DNA of 64,000 nucleotides from an uncultured Endomicrobiia bacterium (GTDB lineage Bacteria; Elusimicrobiota; Endomicrobiia; DTEH01): positions 1 through 64,000 of the forward strand of contig CALFVX010000012.1 in NCBI GenBank assembly GCA_937928765.1, written 5' to 3'. This document shows, piece by piece, positions 31,682-41,329 of this stretch. The position numbers were made by a program, and so were the translations under genes. Positions within the stretch are counted from its first letter, which is position 1; each line of letters starts with the position of its first letter. The notes under the pieces were generated by a model. That model saw nothing but the letters and a program-made list of their open reading frames with translations, searched no databases and was not told the DNA's origin.

Positions 31682-32215
31682 ATGAAAACAAAAATTTTAC
31701 ATAAAATAAATATAGAATATACTCAAGGTGATATAACAAAACAACCTGATATTGAAGCAATAGTTAACGCAGCAAATGCATATCTTAAACCAGGAGGTGG
31801 TGTTGCAGGAGCTATACATTGTGCTGCAGGAATTGAGCTTGAGAAAGAATGTGCAAAATATGCTCCAATAAAAGTTGGCCAAGCTGTGATAACCAAAGCA
31901 TATAATTTACCTAACAAATATGTTATTCATTGTTTAGGCCCAAGATATAAAATAGATAAACCTGAAGAAAAACTTCTGGCAGATTGTTATATAAACTCAC
32001 TTAAAATCGCTGAAGAGAATAAAATTTTTTCAGTTGCATTTCCTTCTATTTCTACAGGTGCTTTTGGTTATCCTATAGAAGAAGCAACAAATGTTGTAAT
32101 TGAAACAATAAAGATTTTAGCACCAAAATTGAAATTTGTCAAAAAAATAAGATTTGTGCTTTTTAGTAGATATGATTTTGAGGTCTATAACAGAATAATT
32201 TCAGAAAAATTATGA
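31682..32215 (+). CDS. Macro domain protein (ADP-ribose-binding deacetylase type)
   Basis: A 177-residue single macro domain. The ligand loops are AIVNAANAYLKPGGGVAGAI (Asn and the GGG loop) and FPSISTGAFGYPIEEA. It binds ADP-ribose and in related proteins removes acetyl groups from O-acetyl-ADP-ribose or reverses ADP-ribosylation. Its stop overlaps the fhs start by four bases, a link I would not expect. Upstream is a 140-base AT-rich gap with no clear promoter. Confidence 0.9.
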   Translation: MKTKILHKINIEYTQGDITKQPDIEAIVNAANAYLKPGGGVAGAIHCAAGIELEKECAKYAPIKVGQAVITKAYNLPNKYVIHCLGPRYKIDKPEEKLLADCYINSLKIAEENKIFSVAFPSISTGAFGYPIEEATNVVIETIKILAPKLKFVKKIRFVLFSRYDFEVYNRIISEKL

Positions 32216-33873
32216 ATATATTACCTATTAAAAAAATTGCAAGAAGATATGGTATTTTAGATAAAGAATTAGAATTATATGGAGATTATAAAGCGAAAGT
32301 AAAGATTGAAATTCTTAAAAGAATAAGTTCTGAAAAAAAGGGCAAATATATAGTTGTCTCAGCTATAACTCCTACAAATTTTGGTGAAGGTAAAACTACT
32401 ACAACAATAGGACTTTCCTTAGCATTAAATAGGTTAGCAAAAAAATCCTTTTGTTGCATAAGACAACCTTCTTTAGGACCTTTGTTTGGCATAAAAGGTG
32501 CATCAAGTGGTGGTAAAGCAAAAGTTATTCCTGAAGAAGATTTTAATATACATCTCACAGGCGATTTTTATGCTGTTTCGGTAGCACATAATTTGTGTAT
32601 GTCATTTTTTATGAATGCAATTTATAGAAGAAAAATTGAAGTTGATAAAGAATCAATTTTATGGAGATATATTTGGGATGTTTCTGACAGATTTCTAAGA
32701 AATGTTTTAATAGGTAATGAAATAAAAGGTAATGATTTTTTCCCTTTGAAGACAGGTTTTGATATTTCCGCATCTTCTGAAATAATGTCGATTTTATCTT
32801 TTTGTTTATCTTTGTCAGATTTAAAAGAAAGATTAAGTAGAATAGTTTTAGGTTTTTCAAAAGATAAAAAACCAGTTACTGCAGAAGATATAAAAGTAGT
32901 AGGTGCAATGTTAGCTGTACTTAAAAATGCTATAAAACCAAATTTACTTCAATCATCTGAGAACACACCTGTTTTTATTCATACAGGACCTTTTGCTAAT
33001 ATTTCTCACGGAAATAGTTCTATAATTGCAGATTTGATTTCATTACATTTATCTGACTATGTTATTACTGAAAGTGGTTTTGGCGCAGATTGTGGATTAG
33101 AAAAGTTTTTTAATATAAAATGTAGATATTCTAATCTTGTAGCTGACTGTGTAGTTTTAGTATGTACTACTAGAGCATTAAAAATACATTCTGGAAAAAT
33201 TGATTTTCTTTATAATAAACCTTTACCTGAAGAGTTAACAAAAGAAAATTTACAACTTTTAGAAGAAGGGTTATGTAATTTAGAAAAACAAATTGAAAAT
33301 GTTTTATTGTATGGTTTACCTGTAGTAGTGGCTATTAATAGATTTTCTACTGACACAGATAAGGAGTTAGCTCTCATTCAAAAAAAAGCAAAAGAATTTG
33401 GTGCTGAAGATGCTGTAGTTTCTGAAGTATGGCAAAAAGGTTCAAAAGGAGGCATAGATCTTGCAAAAGCTGTAATAAAAGCATCAAGCAAACCTAAAAA
33501 TTTTAAATTTTTATATCCACTTGATATGTCTATAAAAGAAAAAATCTATACAATAGCAACAAAAATTTATGGAGCAAAAGATATAGAATATTCATCCTTA
33601 GCAGAAGAAAAAATAAAACTATACACAGAACTTGGTTGGGATAAACTACCAGTATGTATGGCAAAAACACATCTTTCTTTAAGCTGTAATTCTTTACTAA
33701 AAGGAAGGCCTAAAAATTTTGTTTTACCTATAAGAGATATACTTCCCTCAGTAGGTGCTGGATTTATTTATCCTTTATGTGGTGATATAATGACAATGCC
33801 AGGACTGCCTTCTTTACCTGTAGGTACTACTGTTGATGTTGACGAGAATGGTAGAGTTATAGGATTATTTTAA
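32212..33873 (+). CDS. fhs: Formate-tetrahydrofolate ligase
   Basis: A 553-residue Fhs, the usual size, making 10-formyl-THF from formate, ATP and THF, the first step of the Wood-Ljungdahl methyl branch. Motifs: TPTNFGEGKTTTTIGLSLAL (ATP loop), RQPSLGPLFGIKGASSGGK, HLTGDFYAVSVAHNL, and the C-terminal MTMPGLPSLPVGTTVDVDE. It is translationally coupled to the macro domain gene. The rest of the pathway begins after the decayed region at 34.7 kb. Confidence 0.97.
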   Translation: MNILPIKKIARRYGILDKELELYGDYKAKVKIEILKRISSEKKGKYIVVSAITPTNFGEGKTTTTIGLSLALNRLAKKSFCCIRQPSLGPLFGIKGASSGGKAKVIPEEDFNIHLTGDFYAVSVAHNLCMSFFMNAIYRRKIEVDKESILWRYIWDVSDRFLRNVLIGNEIKGNDFFPLKTGFDISASSEIMSILSFCLSLSDLKERLSRIVLGFSKDKKPVTAEDIKVVGAMLAVLKNAIKPNLLQSSENTPVFIHTGPFANISHGNSSIIADLISLHLSDYVITESGFGADCGLEKFFNIKCRYSNLVADCVVLVCTTRALKIHSGKIDFLYNKPLPEELTKENLQLLEEGLCNLEKQIENVLLYGLPVVVAINRFSTDTDKELALIQKKAKEFGAEDAVVSEVWQKGSKGGIDLAKAVIKASSKPKNFKFLYPLDMSIKEKIYTIATKIYGAKDIEYSSLAEEKIKLYTELGWDKLPVCMAKTHLSLSCNSLLKGRPKNFVLPIRDILPSVGAGFIYPLCGDIMTMPGLPSLPVGTTVDVDENGRVIGLF

Positions 33874-34712: not shown

Positions 34713-36701
34713 ATGAATCTTAATTTTGCTAAGTTTGATTTAAAACCAGAACAAGAATTAAAATTTCTTCTTAAAAAAAAAGATGATCTTATCCTTATTG
34801 TTTGTAGTAAATGTTTTGTTAATTACACATCAGAAGAAGTTTCACAATCTTGCAAACCAGTATTTGAAATTTTTAAAAGATTAAATAAAAAAATTAAAAA
34901 ATGTATAGAATTAAATTTTTTATGCAGTACATATATAAACAAAGAAAAAATTTTAGAGATTATTAATAAATATGAAAGATATGAAATTTGTGTTTTCAGT
35001 TGTGGTTTGGGAATACAAAATATAGCAAAATTAATAGAAAAAGAAATTGTTGCTATTTCTAATTCTATACAACCAAAATATAGTTATAATTCAGAAACAC
35101 TTCATCACGGAATATCTTTAGACAATGATAAATTTTGTGCAACTTGCGGAGAATGTTTTTTAAATTATACTTCAGGGATATGTCCAATAGTTGAATGTCC
35201 TAAAAGCTTGTTAAACGGACCTTGTGGTGGTGCAAAAAATGCTAAATGTGAAGTTGATAAAGAAAAAGATTGTGTTTGGATAAAAATCTATAATATTTTA
35301 AAAGAAAAGAATTATAAAACTAATAGCAAGGTTTTAATAAGAAAATACAACAATCTATTGTTTGAAGAAAATAAAAAGCTGATAGAAAAAAATTTAGCTA
35401 TTCGTGTTAAAGATTTCTGTGGCGGTGTTTACCCACAAGAAAATAAAAATATTACCCAAAATATATCTACAGAAAAATTTTTATCTCCACAAATTGTAAA
35501 AATTTTTTTATCTCAACATATAGGTAAGCCATCAATACCATTGGTAAAGATTGGCGATTATGTTTTTTTAGGACAAAAAATTGCAAAATCTGACGGATTT
35601 CTCTCTGCAAATATTCATTCAAGTGTAAGTGGTAAAGTAATTGATATAAAAGAAATTTTCCATCCTATAGCCAAAAAAAATTTACCAGCAATAGTCATAG
35701 AAAATGATAATAAAGAATTAAAAGATTATAAAATAAAACCTAAAAATAATTGGAAAAATCTTAATAAACAAAAAATTTTAGAAATAATTTTTGAAAAAGG
35801 TATAGTTGGACTTGGTGGCGCAATGTTTCCTACACATGTAAAGTTGTCTTCAAATAAAAAAATTGATACTTTAATTATCAACGCTTCTGAATGTGAGCCA
35901 TATATAAATGTAGATAACAGAACAATTTTAGAAAATACAAAAGAAATAATTGAGGGAATAAATATCATAAAATTTTTGTTAGATATAAAAAATACTATTT
36001 TTGCAATAGAAGATAATAAAATAGAAGCTATTGAGAAATTAAGATCTATTTTGCCAAAAGAAATAAAAATTGAAGTTTTGAAAACAAAATATCCTCAAGG
36101 TGCTGAAAAAATTTTGATAAAGAAATTGTTGAATTTAAAAATACCTAAGAATAAAATTCCATTAGAATACGGCATTTTGGTACATAATATATCGACTGTT
36201 TATTTAATATATAAAGCAGTAGTTGAAGGAATTCCTTTTATTGAAAGAACTGTCACAATTGCTGGTGATGAAGAAATTAAAAAAAAATATGGCAACTACA
36301 TCATAAAAATTGGAACACCAATAGATTTTATTGTAAAAAATTCTTTTAATGAAAATTTTAATTTAGAAAAATTTTTGTTAAAATTTAGTGGTTATATAAT
36401 GGGGGTTGAACTTAAAACATTAGATACTGCTATTATTAAAGGATGTAATAGTATCTTAGGGTTAATTAAAAAAAATAATTATAGCTTATATAACAAATGT
36501 ATAAAATGTGGCAGATGTGTAGATGTTTGCCCAATGGAACTTGAACCTTTAGAATTTGTGTTTTCTTACCAAGAAAATAAAATGGATAATTTAGAAAGAT
36601 TAAATATGAAAAATTGTATAGAATGTGGTTGTTGTGAATATATATGCCCATCTAAAATTTACATTGTAGAAATTATAAAACAATTAAAAAATAGATTCTA
36701 A
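34713..36701 (+). CDS. MetV-RnfC fusion, methylene-THF reductase partner and electron-input module
   Basis: A 662-residue two-part protein. Residues 1-200 are a MetV (MTHFR C-terminal-like) domain with the run CATCGECFLNYTSGICP, then LLNGPCGGAKNAKCEVD and DCVWIKIYNIL. Residues about 255-662 are an RnfC-like module: lipoyl-like N-terminal sandwich (VKIGDYVFLGQKIA), the NADH/FMN loop GIVGLGGAMFPTHVKL, ASECEPYINVD, and two 4Fe-4S motifs (Cys596/599/602/606 and Cys635/638/641/645). In Acetobacterium woodii MetF, MetV and RnfC2 form a three-subunit NADH-linked reductase; here two of them are one chain. The gene starts a run metV-rnfC, metV, metF, fchA with 4, 17 and -4 base spacing. Confidence 0.85.
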   Translation: MNLNFAKFDLKPEQELKFLLKKKDDLILIVCSKCFVNYTSEEVSQSCKPVFEIFKRLNKKIKKCIELNFLCSTYINKEKILEIINKYERYEICVFSCGLGIQNIAKLIEKEIVAISNSIQPKYSYNSETLHHGISLDNDKFCATCGECFLNYTSGICPIVECPKSLLNGPCGGAKNAKCEVDKEKDCVWIKIYNILKEKNYKTNSKVLIRKYNNLLFEENKKLIEKNLAIRVKDFCGGVYPQENKNITQNISTEKFLSPQIVKIFLSQHIGKPSIPLVKIGDYVFLGQKIAKSDGFLSANIHSSVSGKVIDIKEIFHPIAKKNLPAIVIENDNKELKDYKIKPKNNWKNLNKQKILEIIFEKGIVGLGGAMFPTHVKLSSNKKIDTLIINASECEPYINVDNRTILENTKEIIEGINIIKFLLDIKNTIFAIEDNKIEAIEKLRSILPKEIKIEVLKTKYPQGAEKILIKKLLNLKIPKNKIPLEYGILVHNISTVYLIYKAVVEGIPFIERTVTIAGDEEIKKKYGNYIIKIGTPIDFIVKNSFNENFNLEKFLLKFSGYIMGVELKTLDTAIIKGCNSILGLIKKNNYSLYNKCIKCGRCVDVCPMELEPLEFVFSYQENKMDNLERLNMKNCIECGCCEYICPSKIYIVEIIKQLKNRF

Positions 36702-36705
36702 AATT

Positions 36706-37308
36706 ATGTTTGTATTAAAAGTTAAAAAACAAGAAGAAATTTTTGAATTAATAAATAATAAAAAAACTTTTGTTTTTATATGCGAAGGATGCAATGAAAT
36801 TTTTCTTTATAGAGAAGAAATTACCAAATTCTTAGATTCATTATCAAAAGAAAATATTATTGATACAAAAATTGTAGATTATATTTGTAACCCAGAATAT
36901 ATTAAAAATTATTTCGAGATATTTAAGAAAACAATAGATCTATCTGATATAATTTTAATATTTTCTTGTGGTGTTGGAGTACAAACTGCAAATAAAATTT
37001 CAAACTTACCTGTGTATACAGGATGTGATACTTTACATATTCCAGGATATAAAGGAGTTGAAACTGTTGCAGATGAAAATTATGATTGTATTTTATGTGG
37101 GAATTGCTATCTAAATTATACAGCTAACATTTGTCCTTTAACTTCATGCCCAAAAGAGTTGTTAAACGGACCTTGTGGAGGAGCCAAAAATGGTAAGTGT
37201 GAAATTGATAACAAAAAAGATTGTTCTTGGGAAAAAATTTTCGAAAAATTGAAAAAATATAACAATTTTGAAAAAATAAAAAATGAAATTTTAACAAGAA
37301 AATTTTAA
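36706..37308 (+). CDS. metV: Second, stand-alone MetV
   Basis: A 200-residue MetV paralogue of the fusion's N-terminal domain. The cysteine pattern is the same: CEGC (Cys26, Cys29), SCGVGVQ (Cys88), CILCGNCYLNYTANICP, then LLNGPCGGAKNGKCEID and CSWEKIFEKL. MetV is an iron-sulfur partner of MetF in acetogens and related anaerobes. It begins four bases after the fusion gene and ends 17 before metF. The two MetV copies differ enough to have been separate for a long time. Confidence 0.88.
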   Translation: MFVLKVKKQEEIFELINNKKTFVFICEGCNEIFLYREEITKFLDSLSKENIIDTKIVDYICNPEYIKNYFEIFKKTIDLSDIILIFSCGVGVQTANKISNLPVYTGCDTLHIPGYKGVETVADENYDCILCGNCYLNYTANICPLTSCPKELLNGPCGGAKNGKCEIDNKKDCSWEKIFEKLKKYNNFEKIKNEILTRKF

Positions 37309-37325
37309 ACAAATTTATAAAAATT

Positions 37326-38210
37326 ATGATTTTAAAAGATATATTTTTCAAAAAATTTGTTATAACAGCAGAAATAGGTCCACCTAAAAGTTGGCAAGTT
37401 GAAAGTTTAATACAACAATATAAAAAATATTTGACAGAAAAGATTGATGCAATAAATGTTACTGACAACCAAGCATCAGTGATGAAATTTGGCTCGCTTG
37501 GGATGAGTATTTTATTGAAGCAAAATGGTTTTGAACCAATATACCAGATTACCTGTAGAGATAGAAATCGTATTGCATTACAATCTGACATACTTAACGC
37601 TGCTTTTTTTGGTATACAAAATTTGTTGTTGTTAACTGGAGATCATCCTATAGTAGGGGATCACAAAAATGCAAAACCCGTTTTTGATTTAGATTCTGTA
37701 TCTTTAATCTATACCGTAAAAAATCTAATGCAAGGATATGATTTAGCAGGAAACAAACTTTCAGGAGAACCACCAAAATTCTGCATAGGTGCAGCTGTAG
37801 CACCAGAAACAGAATATTTAGATTCACAAATTTTTAAAATGGAAAAAAAAATTAATGCTGGAGCAGAATTTTTTCAAACACAACTTGTCTTTAATCCTGA
37901 AAAATTTATAAAATTTATAAATATAGTTAGAAAAAATTTTGGCAAAATTCCAATAATGGCAGGAATTACTATTTTGAAATCAGTTAATATGGCCAAATTT
38001 ATGAATGAAAATATACCAGGTATAAATATACCAGAAAGTATTATAAAACAACTTGAATTAGATAAAGAAAAAACAAAATCTGGCCAAAAAGGATTAGAAA
38101 TTGCTGCTAATATTATAAAAGATATAAAACCATATTGCGAAGGCATTCATATAATGCCTTTGGGATGGATAAATAAAATACCACAATTACTTTCTCTTGC
38201 TGAATTATGA
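37326..38210 (+). CDS. metF: Methylenetetrahydrofolate reductase
   Basis: A 294-residue MetF, an FAD-dependent TIM barrel. Motifs: VITAEIGPPK (acidic Glu near the start), AINVTDNQASVMKFGSLGMS, YQITCRDRNRIALQSDIL, LLLLTGDHPIVGDH and KPVFDLDS, then EFFQTQLVF. It lacks the C-terminal NADPH-binding domain of eukaryotic forms, as in bacteria. Next to two MetV domains and RnfC-type electron input, it should reduce methylene-THF to methyl-THF. Its stop overlaps fchA by four bases. Confidence 0.95.
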   Translation: MILKDIFFKKFVITAEIGPPKSWQVESLIQQYKKYLTEKIDAINVTDNQASVMKFGSLGMSILLKQNGFEPIYQITCRDRNRIALQSDILNAAFFGIQNLLLLTGDHPIVGDHKNAKPVFDLDSVSLIYTVKNLMQGYDLAGNKLSGEPPKFCIGAAVAPETEYLDSQIFKMEKKINAGAEFFQTQLVFNPEKFIKFINIVRKNFGKIPIMAGITILKSVNMAKFMNENIPGINIPESIIKQLELDKEKTKSGQKGLEIAANIIKDIKPYCEGIHIMPLGWINKIPQLLSLAEL

Positions 38211-38872
38211 AAGATAATATTAACTACATTTCTGAATATTCAGATACTTTAAAGAATTATCTAAAGTTAAGTATAAAATCCTTTTTAGATGATTTGTCTT
38301 CAAACTTACCAGTACCTGGTGGAGGTGCTGCTTCAGCATTAGTATCATCTTTAGGAGCAAGTTGTTTTTTAATGGTAGCTAATTTTACTTTGAATAAAAA
38401 GGGATATGAAAAGTATCAACAAGAAGTAAAAGAGTTAATAGAAAAATTTACTGGATATAAAAATCATCTAGAACAACTTATAAATAAAGATATAGAAGCT
38501 TATAATGAAGTTAACAAATCTTATAAATTACCGAAAACAACACTTCTGGATTCAGAATTAAGAAATAAACAAATTCAACAAGCACTAAAAAATTCTACAT
38601 TAGTAGCATTTGAGATAATTGAAATATCACACAACTGTATTATATTAGCTGACAAATTATTGAAAGTTGGGAATAAAAATCTTATAACTGATATTGCTTG
38701 TGGCGTATTGTTTTTATCATCTGGAATTTCTGCTGCAAAATATAATGTATTGATAAATCTTAAAAGTATAAATGATTCTAAGTTTTGTTCAGAAATAAAA
38801 AAAAGAATAAAAAAAATCTATACTGACACAAAAATAATAACAAAAAAATTTTTACAAAAAATAAATATATAA
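38207..38872 (+). CDS. fchA: Methenyltetrahydrofolate cyclohydrolase (FchA, cyclodeaminase-like)
   Basis: A 221-residue protein of the formiminotransferase-cyclodeaminase family. The folate loop LPVPGGGAASALVSSLGAS is clear, followed by NFTLNKKGYEKYQ and the acidic DIEAYNEV. Stand-alone members next to C1 genes are methenyl-THF cyclohydrolases. A separate enzyme fits the FolD variant found downstream (40382), which has lost the cyclohydrolase lysine. It is coupled to metF by a four-base overlap. Confidence 0.88.
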   Translation: MKDNINYISEYSDTLKNYLKLSIKSFLDDLSSNLPVPGGGAASALVSSLGASCFLMVANFTLNKKGYEKYQQEVKELIEKFTGYKNHLEQLINKDIEAYNEVNKSYKLPKTTLLDSELRNKQIQQALKNSTLVAFEIIEISHNCIILADKLLKVGNKNLITDIACGVLFLSSGISAAKYNVLINLKSINDSKFCSEIKKRIKKIYTDTKIITKKFLQKINI

Positions 38873-38997: not shown

Positions 38998-39477
38998 ATG
39001 AATGAAATAAAAAAACAACAAAGAAAATTTCTTAGTTTTTTATCAGTTGGTGAATTAAAATTTTGGTATTTTAAATATATAATAGGTATGATGTTGTTTG
39101 CTATAATAGTAGCAGGGATTACTATTCATTTTGCCTTATCTCATTCTGCACAAATAATAAAATTTTTAGCAAAACAATCAGAATTGACTTCTGTCTCTTT
39201 ATCACTTGATACTATTGTGGAAATTTTAAGAAGTACCCAAATAATAGTAAGGAATGCACTAATTGTTGAAAGTATTGTTTTGATAATAATAGGTATTTTT
39301 ATAAGTTTATATTTTGTGCACAAAATAATTGGCGCTTTAAAAAGAATAGATAGAGAGGTGACACAGATGTTAACAGGAACTACACCTTACCATGAGATAA
39401 CATTAAGAAAAGGTGATTATTTAAAACCATTTGTAGAGATAATGAATAGACTTATCAATAAGATATCAAAAAGCTAA
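38998..39477 (+). CDS. Small membrane protein with HAMP-like end
   Basis: A 159-residue protein with two membrane helices (IIGMMLFAIIVAGITIHFAL and ALIVESIVLIIIGIFISLYF) separated by about 40 periplasmic residues, followed by a short cytoplasmic HAMP-like helix pair (IIGALKRIDREVTQMLTG ... FVEIMNRLINKI). It lacks any output domain. A clear AAGGAGG stands 14 to 20 bases ahead. I know no family name. It could pair with a receptor elsewhere. Confidence 0.7.
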   Translation: MNEIKKQQRKFLSFLSVGELKFWYFKYIIGMMLFAIIVAGITIHFALSHSAQIIKFLAKQSELTSVSLSLDTIVEILRSTQIIVRNALIVESIVLIIIGIFISLYFVHKIIGALKRIDREVTQMLTGTTPYHEITLRKGDYLKPFVEIMNRLINKISKS

Positions 39478-39509
39478 TTAACAAAAAAATAACATCTAAT
39501 CATATATTT

Positions 39510-40376
39510 ATGAATTTCTTTTCTGATAAAATTTCTACTCTCATTAGTTTTTTAGTAAATTTGTTTTTAGTAATTATTAAATTTTTATCAGGAATATTTG
39601 GTAAAAGTCAAACAATGATAGCAGATGCTATACATTCATTATCAGATGGTATTGCTACTATAATTGTATATATATCTTTAAATTTTTCTAAAAAACCTGC
39701 TGATAAAAATCATCCTTATGGTCATGGTAATATAGAAGTTATCGTTGCTATATTTGTATCATTTTTAATTTTTCTAACAGGCTTTTTTTTAGGCTATTCT
39801 GCCATTCATAGTATTATTCATAAACATTATTATGACACAATACCAGAAAAATTTACAATTTATATTGCTATTTTATCTATAATTGTCAAAGAATTACTTT
39901 ATAGATATACATATTTTGTTGGTAAAAAATTAAATTCTCCTATGATTATAGCTAATGCATATGACCATAGATCAGACGCTTTATCTTCTGTTGGAGCATT
40001 GTTAGCAATAATTTTTGCAAGGGTTGCTGTACCAATAATGGATCCTTTAGGAAGTATTATAATATCTTTATTTATTTTAAAAATGGGATTTGAAATCCTA
40101 AAAGATAATATATTTATAATTATGGATACTGTTCCGTCTGATAAATTACAAATAGAAGTGAATAATCTGATAAATACTGTAAAAGGTGTAAAAAGTTCGT
40201 ACTCAACAAGAATTCATCCAGTAGGAAGACATTATTTTATTGAAACAGAAATTGTAGTAGATAAAGAGATAACAGTTGAACAAGCACATAATATTGCTGA
40301 AGAAGTAAAAACTTTGTTAAAAAATAGTAATAATTTAATAAAAGATGTTATTGTGCATATAGAACCAAAGGTATAA
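39510..40376 (+). CDS. Cation diffusion facilitator family transporter
   Basis: A 288-residue CDF protein with six helices and a C-terminal cytoplasmic domain. The metal site is visible in TM2 (ADAIHSLSDG) and TM5 (AYDHRSDALSSVGALL), and the HPYGHGNIEVI loop is typical. CDF proteins export zinc, iron or manganese with proton exchange; the metal is not set by sequence alone. It ends five bases before folD, an association that is probably only operonic. Confidence 0.92.
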   Translation: MNFFSDKISTLISFLVNLFLVIIKFLSGIFGKSQTMIADAIHSLSDGIATIIVYISLNFSKKPADKNHPYGHGNIEVIVAIFVSFLIFLTGFFLGYSAIHSIIHKHYYDTIPEKFTIYIAILSIIVKELLYRYTYFVGKKLNSPMIIANAYDHRSDALSSVGALLAIIFARVAVPIMDPLGSIIISLFILKMGFEILKDNIFIIMDTVPSDKLQIEVNNLINTVKGVKSSYSTRIHPVGRHYFIETEIVVDKEITVEQAHNIAEEVKTLLKNSNNLIKDVIVHIEPKV

Positions 40377-40381
40377 TTTTC

Positions 40382-41329
40382 ATGAAAACACAAATTATTG
40401 ATGGTAAAAATATTGCTAAAAGAATAAAGGATGAAGTTTTAGATGAAATCTTAAAATTTAAAAATAAATTTAAAATTATACCTAAAATTGCTTCAATAAC
40501 AGTTGGAGAAAATTCTGCTACTAAAATTTATTTAAATACCCAGTTAAGAATTTGTAACGATTTAGGTATTGATATTGAAATTTTTAATTTTAAAGAGAAC
40601 ATTTCACAAAAAGAAATTGAAAAAAAAATATTAGATCTAAACAATGATAAAAAAATCAATGCAATAATTTTAAATTTACCATTGCCACAACATTTAAATA
40701 AAAGAAAAATACAAAATTTAATTTCTCCAAAAAAAGATGTGGAAGGTATAACATCAGAAAATCTTGGTAAATTATTTTATACATCAGAAGAACTTTTAGT
40801 AGCACCTTGTACTGCATTATCAATAATAGAATGTTTAAAAGAGACAAAAGTTAATCTTAAAAGTAAAGAGGTTGTTATAGTAGGACATTCAGAAATTGTG
40901 GGTAAACCTGTTTTACTTATGTTATTATCATCTTTGTTATCTTCACCTACAGTTACAGTATGTCACATAGCAACAAATAATCTTAGTTTTCATACAAAAA
41001 GAGCCGATGTTTTAATAGTAGCTGTTGGTAAGCCTAAACTAATTACTGAAAATATGGTTAAAAGAGGTGTTATTATAATAGATGTGGGAATAAACTATGT
41101 AAATGTGAAAAATTGTAATGATAAAAAAATCATAGATCAAAAAGCTAAAAATCCTAAGCTGAGACTTGTAGGAGATGTTGATTTTGAAAATGTTTCTAAA
41201 AAAGCTTCATTTATAACACCAGTACCTGGCGGTGTTGGTCCTGTAACTAATTCAATTTTGATGAAAAACTTAGTTAATTTATTAAAACTGCAATATGGTT
41301 TATCATTAAATGGATATAAAATTTTCTAA
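40382..41329 (+). CDS. folD: FolD, methylene-THF dehydrogenase with altered cyclohydrolase site
   Basis: A 315-residue FolD. The folate pocket is IYLNTQLRICNDLG, ILNLPLPQHL and KKDVEGITSENLG; the nucleotide loop is VIVGHSEIVGKPVLLML and the end TPVPGGVGPVT. Numbering matches E. coli FolD. Tyr50 is kept, but the key Lys54 is Gln (codon CAG 40541-40543), Gln98 is Asn and Asp121 is Glu. In the human enzyme the Lys-to-Gln change removes cyclohydrolase but spares dehydrogenase. It should therefore be dehydrogenase only, with FchA doing the cyclohydrolase step. It lies between the CDF gene and thiD2. Confidence 0.93.
   Translation: MKTQIIDGKNIAKRIKDEVLDEILKFKNKFKIIPKIASITVGENSATKIYLNTQLRICNDLGIDIEIFNFKENISQKEIEKKILDLNNDKKINAIILNLPLPQHLNKRKIQNLISPKKDVEGITSENLGKLFYTSEELLVAPCTALSIIECLKETKVNLKSKEVVIVGHSEIVGKPVLLMLLSSLLSSPTVTVCHIATNNLSFHTKRADVLIVAVGKPKLITENMVKRGVIIIDVGINYVNVKNCNDKKIIDQKAKNPKLRLVGDVDFENVSKKASFITPVPGGVGPVTNSILMKNLVNLLKLQYGLSLNGYKIF

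Follow-up and report, generated by a model that had tools for sequence, protein, structure and literature searches.

In Clostridium perfringens, FolD is reportedly a dehydrogenase only, with FchA supplying the cyclohydrolase. A separate FchA is described for some microorganisms in PMC7219735. Cluster II of A. woodii has the order fhs1-fchA-folD-rnfC2-metV-metF, and its RnfC2 carries a 220-residue MetV-like extension (PMC3315566); the methylene-THF dehydrogenase of this organism is reported to be NAD-dependent (Ragsdale and Ljungdahl 1984). The same contrast is on record in older biochemistry: the enzymes of Clostridium formicoaceticum are reported as separate and those of C. thermoaceticum as combined (Ljungdahl et al. 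1980). Yeast MTD1 (1edz), a FolD-fold NAD-dependent methylene-THF dehydrogenase, is described as monofunctional.

For the bifunctional enzymes, mutants bear on the cyclohydrolase residues. E. coli FolD K54N has undetectable cyclohydrolase and about 19% of the dehydrogenase, and Q98H has about 1% and 8%, respectively; E. coli mutants without cyclohydrolase are viable, the step being also spontaneous (PMC5688156). In the human enzyme, Lys56 has been reported to act in cyclohydrolase proton transfer with Gln100 beside it, and Asp125 to bind the pterin (PMC3368264). Human K56E, as re-read in PMC9173628, has an almost unchanged dehydrogenase isotope ratio and a raised KM; this later analysis leaves the catalytic role of the human cyclohydrolase lysine open, not proven.

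A FolD with glutamine in place of the cyclohydrolase lysine

We analysed a stretch of 64,000 nucleotides from an uncultured Endomicrobiia bacterium (the window), which contains an intact folD ORF. Its product was aligned with E. coli K-12 FolD (NC_000913, b0529); the numbering of the two coincides at the active site, where Y50, Q54, N98 and E121 of the window FolD align with Y50, K54, Q98 and D121 of E. coli. The gene and the codons concerned are:

40382..41329, + strand: folD of the Q54/N98/E121 type, 315 aa, predicted dehydrogenase-only methylene-THF dehydrogenase
40529-40531, + strand: Tyr50 codon TAT, Tyr as in E. coli
40541..40543, + strand: Gln54 codon CAG, replacing the cyclohydrolase Lys54
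40673..40675, + strand: Asn98 codon AAT, replacing Gln98
40742..40744, + strand: Glu121 codon GAA, replacing Asp121

Both the codons and the alignment bear out the original prediction, which had read Gln54, Asn98 and Glu121 here, with Tyr50 kept. The same Y-Q-N-E set is found at these positions of the alignment in two congeneric genomes and in other members of the family, so a sequencing error does not account for it. The protein, the sole PF00763 match in its genome (E=1.2e-32), belongs to the FolD/MTHFD family (PF00763 and PF02882) by both sequence and fold; its structure model (pLDDT 82) has FolD/MTHFD structures as nearest folds (Foldseek probability 1.00, TM 0.73-0.84), and it is very distant in sequence from yeast MTD1 (E=7.8e-11, query FolD P0001). 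With the bifunctional FolDs of E. coli and human MTHFD1 it shares the fold, the dehydrogenase site and Tyr50, but the bifunctional residue set is absent, Lys54, Gln98 and Asp121 all being replaced, and it has no counterpart of the NADP-phosphate Arg/Ser of the Lys54 clade. Among the matches listed, it falls below the cut-off of every NCBIfam model named bifunctional. Given Gln54, Asn98 and Glu121, this FolD should not be filed as bifunctional. The mutant data, together with the kept Tyr50 and the family fold, make loss of the cyclohydrolase with retention of the dehydrogenase the expected phenotype, and we infer that the window FolD is in this state.

The gene cluster around folD

Upstream of folD, the window holds the following features:

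32212..33873, + strand: fhs, formate-tetrahydrofolate ligase (PF01268, E=2.4e-222)
34713..36701, + strand: rnfC2-like gene, RnfC with a MetV-like N-terminal extension (TIGR01945 at residues 234-660)
36706..37308, + strand: metV, methylene-THF reductase small subunit (PF12225, DUF5981, E=1.4e-27)
37326..38210, + strand: metF, methylene-THF reductase (PRK08645 and TIGR00676 matches)
38207..38872, + strand: fchA, predicted free methenyl-THF cyclohydrolase (FTCD_C), 221 aa (PF04961, E=9.3e-57)
38998-39477: membrane protein, function unassigned, between fchA and folD
39510-40376: CDF cation transporter, between fchA and folD

Thus fchA lies with metF 1.5 kb upstream of folD, as had been claimed, and two unrelated genes intervene. 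The window genome thereby has the separate cyclohydrolase gene that goes with the FchA-paired, dehydrogenase-only kind of FolD; the pairing of FolD with a separate FchA is common to it and to C. perfringens, a member of a different phylum (Aluri et al. 2016, Microbiology 162:145-155, doi 10.1099/mic.0.000209). The methyl-branch set of the A. woodii type is present as a whole: fhs, fchA, folD, metV, metF and an rnfC2 with a MetV-like extension, the N-terminal part of the rnfC2-like product being 43% identical to the metV product. As in A. woodii cluster II, the cyclohydrolase has a gene of its own. The order differs, running fhs, rnfC2, metV, metF, fchA, two unrelated genes and folD, and the likeness is one of gene content. 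A further difference from A. woodii concerns the acetyl-CoA synthase subunit CdhC (PF03598), which was found neither in the window genome (G000, 96.5% complete) nor in G003; by this marker the window genome does not encode the full Wood-Ljungdahl pathway. In the phylum sample as a whole, CdhC was found in 17 of the 21 Q54-bearing genomes, two congeners included, and in only one other genome (G038), which has a Lys54 FolD. The methyl branch without CdhC may be a remnant, or the absence may reflect an assembly gap.

On the reading that we favour, FolD would perform only the methylene-THF dehydrogenase step, probably with NAD(H), while FchA of the same cluster would perform the cyclohydrolase step (methenyl-THF <-> 10-formyl-THF); fhs, fchA and folD with rnfC2-metV-metF would then cover the part of the Wood-Ljungdahl route that leads from formate to the methyl level, as in A. 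woodii. FchA may be dispensable for this, since E. coli mutants without cyclohydrolase survive by way of the spontaneous step.

The assignment of fchA has to be weighed against another function, as PF04961 takes in both cyclohydrolases and formimidoyl-THF cyclodeaminases. The window match (38270-38812) is the only one in the genome and passes the PF04961 cut-off; its sole NCBIfam match is NF045657 FchA, at 157 bits against a curated cut-off of 275. The breadth of PF04961, this sub-threshold score and the fused formiminotransferase-cyclodeaminase genes in other families of the phylum would all suit a cyclodeaminase that works in amino-acid catabolism and has nothing to do with FolD, the missing step being left to proceed spontaneously. 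However, the window fchA is a standalone gene, the cluster that also contains fhs places it between metF and folD, and the arrangement recurs beside Q54 folD in families f12 and f15 and in Omnitrophota, all of which makes a cyclodeaminase very improbable. As a separate observation, the membrane protein and CDF transporter genes (38998-40376) split fchA from folD in the window, and the two are adjacent in f12, f15 and Omnitrophota.

Gln54 FolDs and a second cyclohydrolase across phyla

The FolD tree, which is unrooted, was computed without the four trait columns. A single branch set all Q54 rows apart, with a support of 100/99 by a careful method (26 rows) and of 92 by a quick one (48 rows). 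Within the clade, Gln54 is present in 48/48 rows and occurs together with Glu121 in 47. A mutational origin of Q54 within the class to which the window belongs was rejected (p-AU 2.5e-6 with the class held together); because class monophyly is thereby rejected against the Q54 branch, Q54 is not a recent local loss. The tree gives good support to Q54/E121 as an old FolD clade spanning several phyla, and indicates that exchange or uneven retention of two old FolD types took place in the window's class. The original wording, that this FolD "has lost" its residues, must accordingly be given up: by the tree, Q54/E121 was inherited from an old, separate clade. At 1.54 Mb the window genome is small, and it is rich in AT; the residue changes of its FolD might on that account be put down to functionally meaningless drift; yet Gln54 is invariant throughout a clade that is old, well supported and spread over several phyla, and this conservation already refutes drift, to which we assign next to no chance.

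A scan of named contigs yielded, among the matches listed, at least 80 FolD loci and was biased towards GHSEIVGK and VIDVGIN patterns; it placed Q54 FolDs in Omnitrophota, Aerophobetes, Planctomycetota, Armatimonadota, SAR324 and Proteobacteria. The gene for FchA is either immediately adjacent or close to Q54 folD in the family of the window, in f2, f12 and f15, and in Omnitrophota; in f12 and f15, both of the window's phylum, it is directly upstream of a Q54/E121 folD in 9/9 genomes read. Within the window's own class, FTCD_C was found in 11 of the 12 genomes with a Q54 FolD (the exception, G013, is 79% complete) and in 0/38 genomes with only a Lys54/Gln98/Asp121 FolD. Together with the E. 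coli K54 and Q98 mutants (PMC5688156), this supports the natural split of functions that was proposed at the outset.

Across phyla, we examined 49 Q54-bearing genomes, 38 with Q54 FolD only and 11 with a Lys54 FolD as well. FTCD_C was present in 34 of the 38, against 7/42 genomes picked for a Lys54 FolD (Fisher 2e-11, a descriptive value that ignores relatedness). When both FolD types were encoded, FTCD_C was present in one genome and absent from ten (for example G109 of family f14). Another visible cyclohydrolase, fchA or a Lys54 FolD, was thus found in 45/49 Q54 genomes. The original prediction held that Gln54 in genomes lacking fchA would count against it; taken literally, 14/49 genomes are of this kind, but 10 of the 14 carry a second, Lys54-type FolD. 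This leaves four in which neither gene was seen (G013, G083, G104 and G106), all metagenome-assembled or incomplete.

The converse relation does not hold. In a Firmicutes class, FTCD_C occurs in 26/73 genomes, and all 30 typed FolDs are Lys54/Gln98/Asp121, 17 of them from FTCD_C genomes; on this count, fchA presence was rejected as a predictor of Q54. Many Firmicutes have both a Lys54 FolD and fchA, so that fchA by itself is no proof. The expectation that Gln54 tracks with fchA therefore stands in one direction only: Q54 predicts another cyclohydrolase, and fchA does not predict Q54.

We considered whether Q54/E121 FolDs keep a cyclohydrolase through a rearranged site built on Gln54 and Glu121, with FchA merely adding flux. 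The joint change of the two residues could be that of a compensating pair, the four Q54-only genomes without another visible cyclohydrolase would fit, and a Lys54 FolD coexists with fchA elsewhere without obvious need. We nevertheless regard this as unlikely: K54N leaves E. coli FolD without the activity (PMC5688156), a lineage with Glu54 (see below) is likewise always accompanied by FTCD_C, and a second cyclohydrolase gene accompanies nearly all Q54 FolDs, as counted above. Judged from sequence, it is very probable that the window FolD is a dehydrogenase-only methylene-THF dehydrogenase of the old Q54/E121 clade, probably NAD(H)-linked, with FchA as its cyclohydrolase.

Cofactor site, related lineages and significance

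Arg and Ser residues have a role in binding the 2'-phosphate of NADP (PMC3368264). In Lys54 FolDs, Arg occupies E. coli position 167 in 46/49 and Ser position 191 in 40/49; Q54 FolDs have His at 167 in 41/48, Ile or His at 191, and have gained Glu at 169 in 37/48. The window FolD has His169, Glu171 and Ile196 at the positions equivalent to E. coli 167, 169 and 191, and the Arg/Ser pair of NADP-dependent FolDs is absent from it. The NADP-phosphate site varies inside the Lys54 clade too, E. coli FolD having Ala167 and Arg191. Without the 2'-phosphate Arg/Ser, the Q54 clade is probably NAD-linked, in agreement with the NAD-dependent A. woodii enzyme. In the sampled proteobacteria and SAR324, Q54 folD adjoins fhs, adjoins fhs plus a Lys54 folD, or lies near a dimethylglycine-dehydrogenase-like gene; these neighbourhoods would fit an NAD-linked C1 route that runs alongside a biosynthetic FolD. 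Sedimentitalea (L115, L166) has fhs, a Lys54 folD and a Q54 folD side by side, as if the FolD types shared the work.

Family f13 belongs to a third, divergent group of FolDs in the phylum and has Glu54/Pro98 (Ala98 in one genome, L211). FTCD_C is present in 8/8 typed f13 genomes and is unlinked to folD (loci L206-L212 and L234). Glu54 in f13 looks like a second route to a cyclohydrolase-less state.

That dehydrogenase and cyclohydrolase can be separate enzymes is long established for clostridia and acetogens, and the window folD is best classed with these. The useful addition here is the sequence signature and the cross-phylum rule; the literature searched, many subscription papers lying outside its reach, yielded no account of either the Q54/E121 clade or the rule of co-occurrence. 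We think it fairly probable that Q54/E121 FolDs make up a distinct, old subfamily, shared across phyla, of dehydrogenase-only enzymes specific for NAD, which are misnamed bifunctional, run with FchA or a Lys54 FolD and separate NAD-linked routes of C1 reduction or oxidation from the biosynthetic, NADP-linked FolD, and that a second lineage reached the same state by a change of Lys54 to Glu. Family models call every FolD bifunctional. The signature, Gln54 with Glu121 and His-Ser-Glu for Arg-Ser-Asn in the cofactor loop, can be read from sequence alone and would flag FolDs that depend on a separate cyclohydrolase and whose cofactor is probably NADH, not NADPH. Energy and redox accounting would be altered for Wood-Ljungdahl organisms and for alphaproteobacteria with both FolD types.

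Other divergent FolDs, in families f16 (L213-L215, L231-L233, L236) and f21/f22 (L217, L219, L220, L222-L224), retain Lys54, but position 98 is Glu or Val and position 121 is in some cases Glu; their genomes mostly encode a fused formiminotransferase-cyclodeaminase. Extra FolD paralogues (L218, 454-1548; L221, 471-1799) have Val/Ile at 54 and Glu121, and recall the yeast MTD1 type. MTD1-like bacterial sequences of the phylum (G147, G156), with Val/Ile at 54, are separate.
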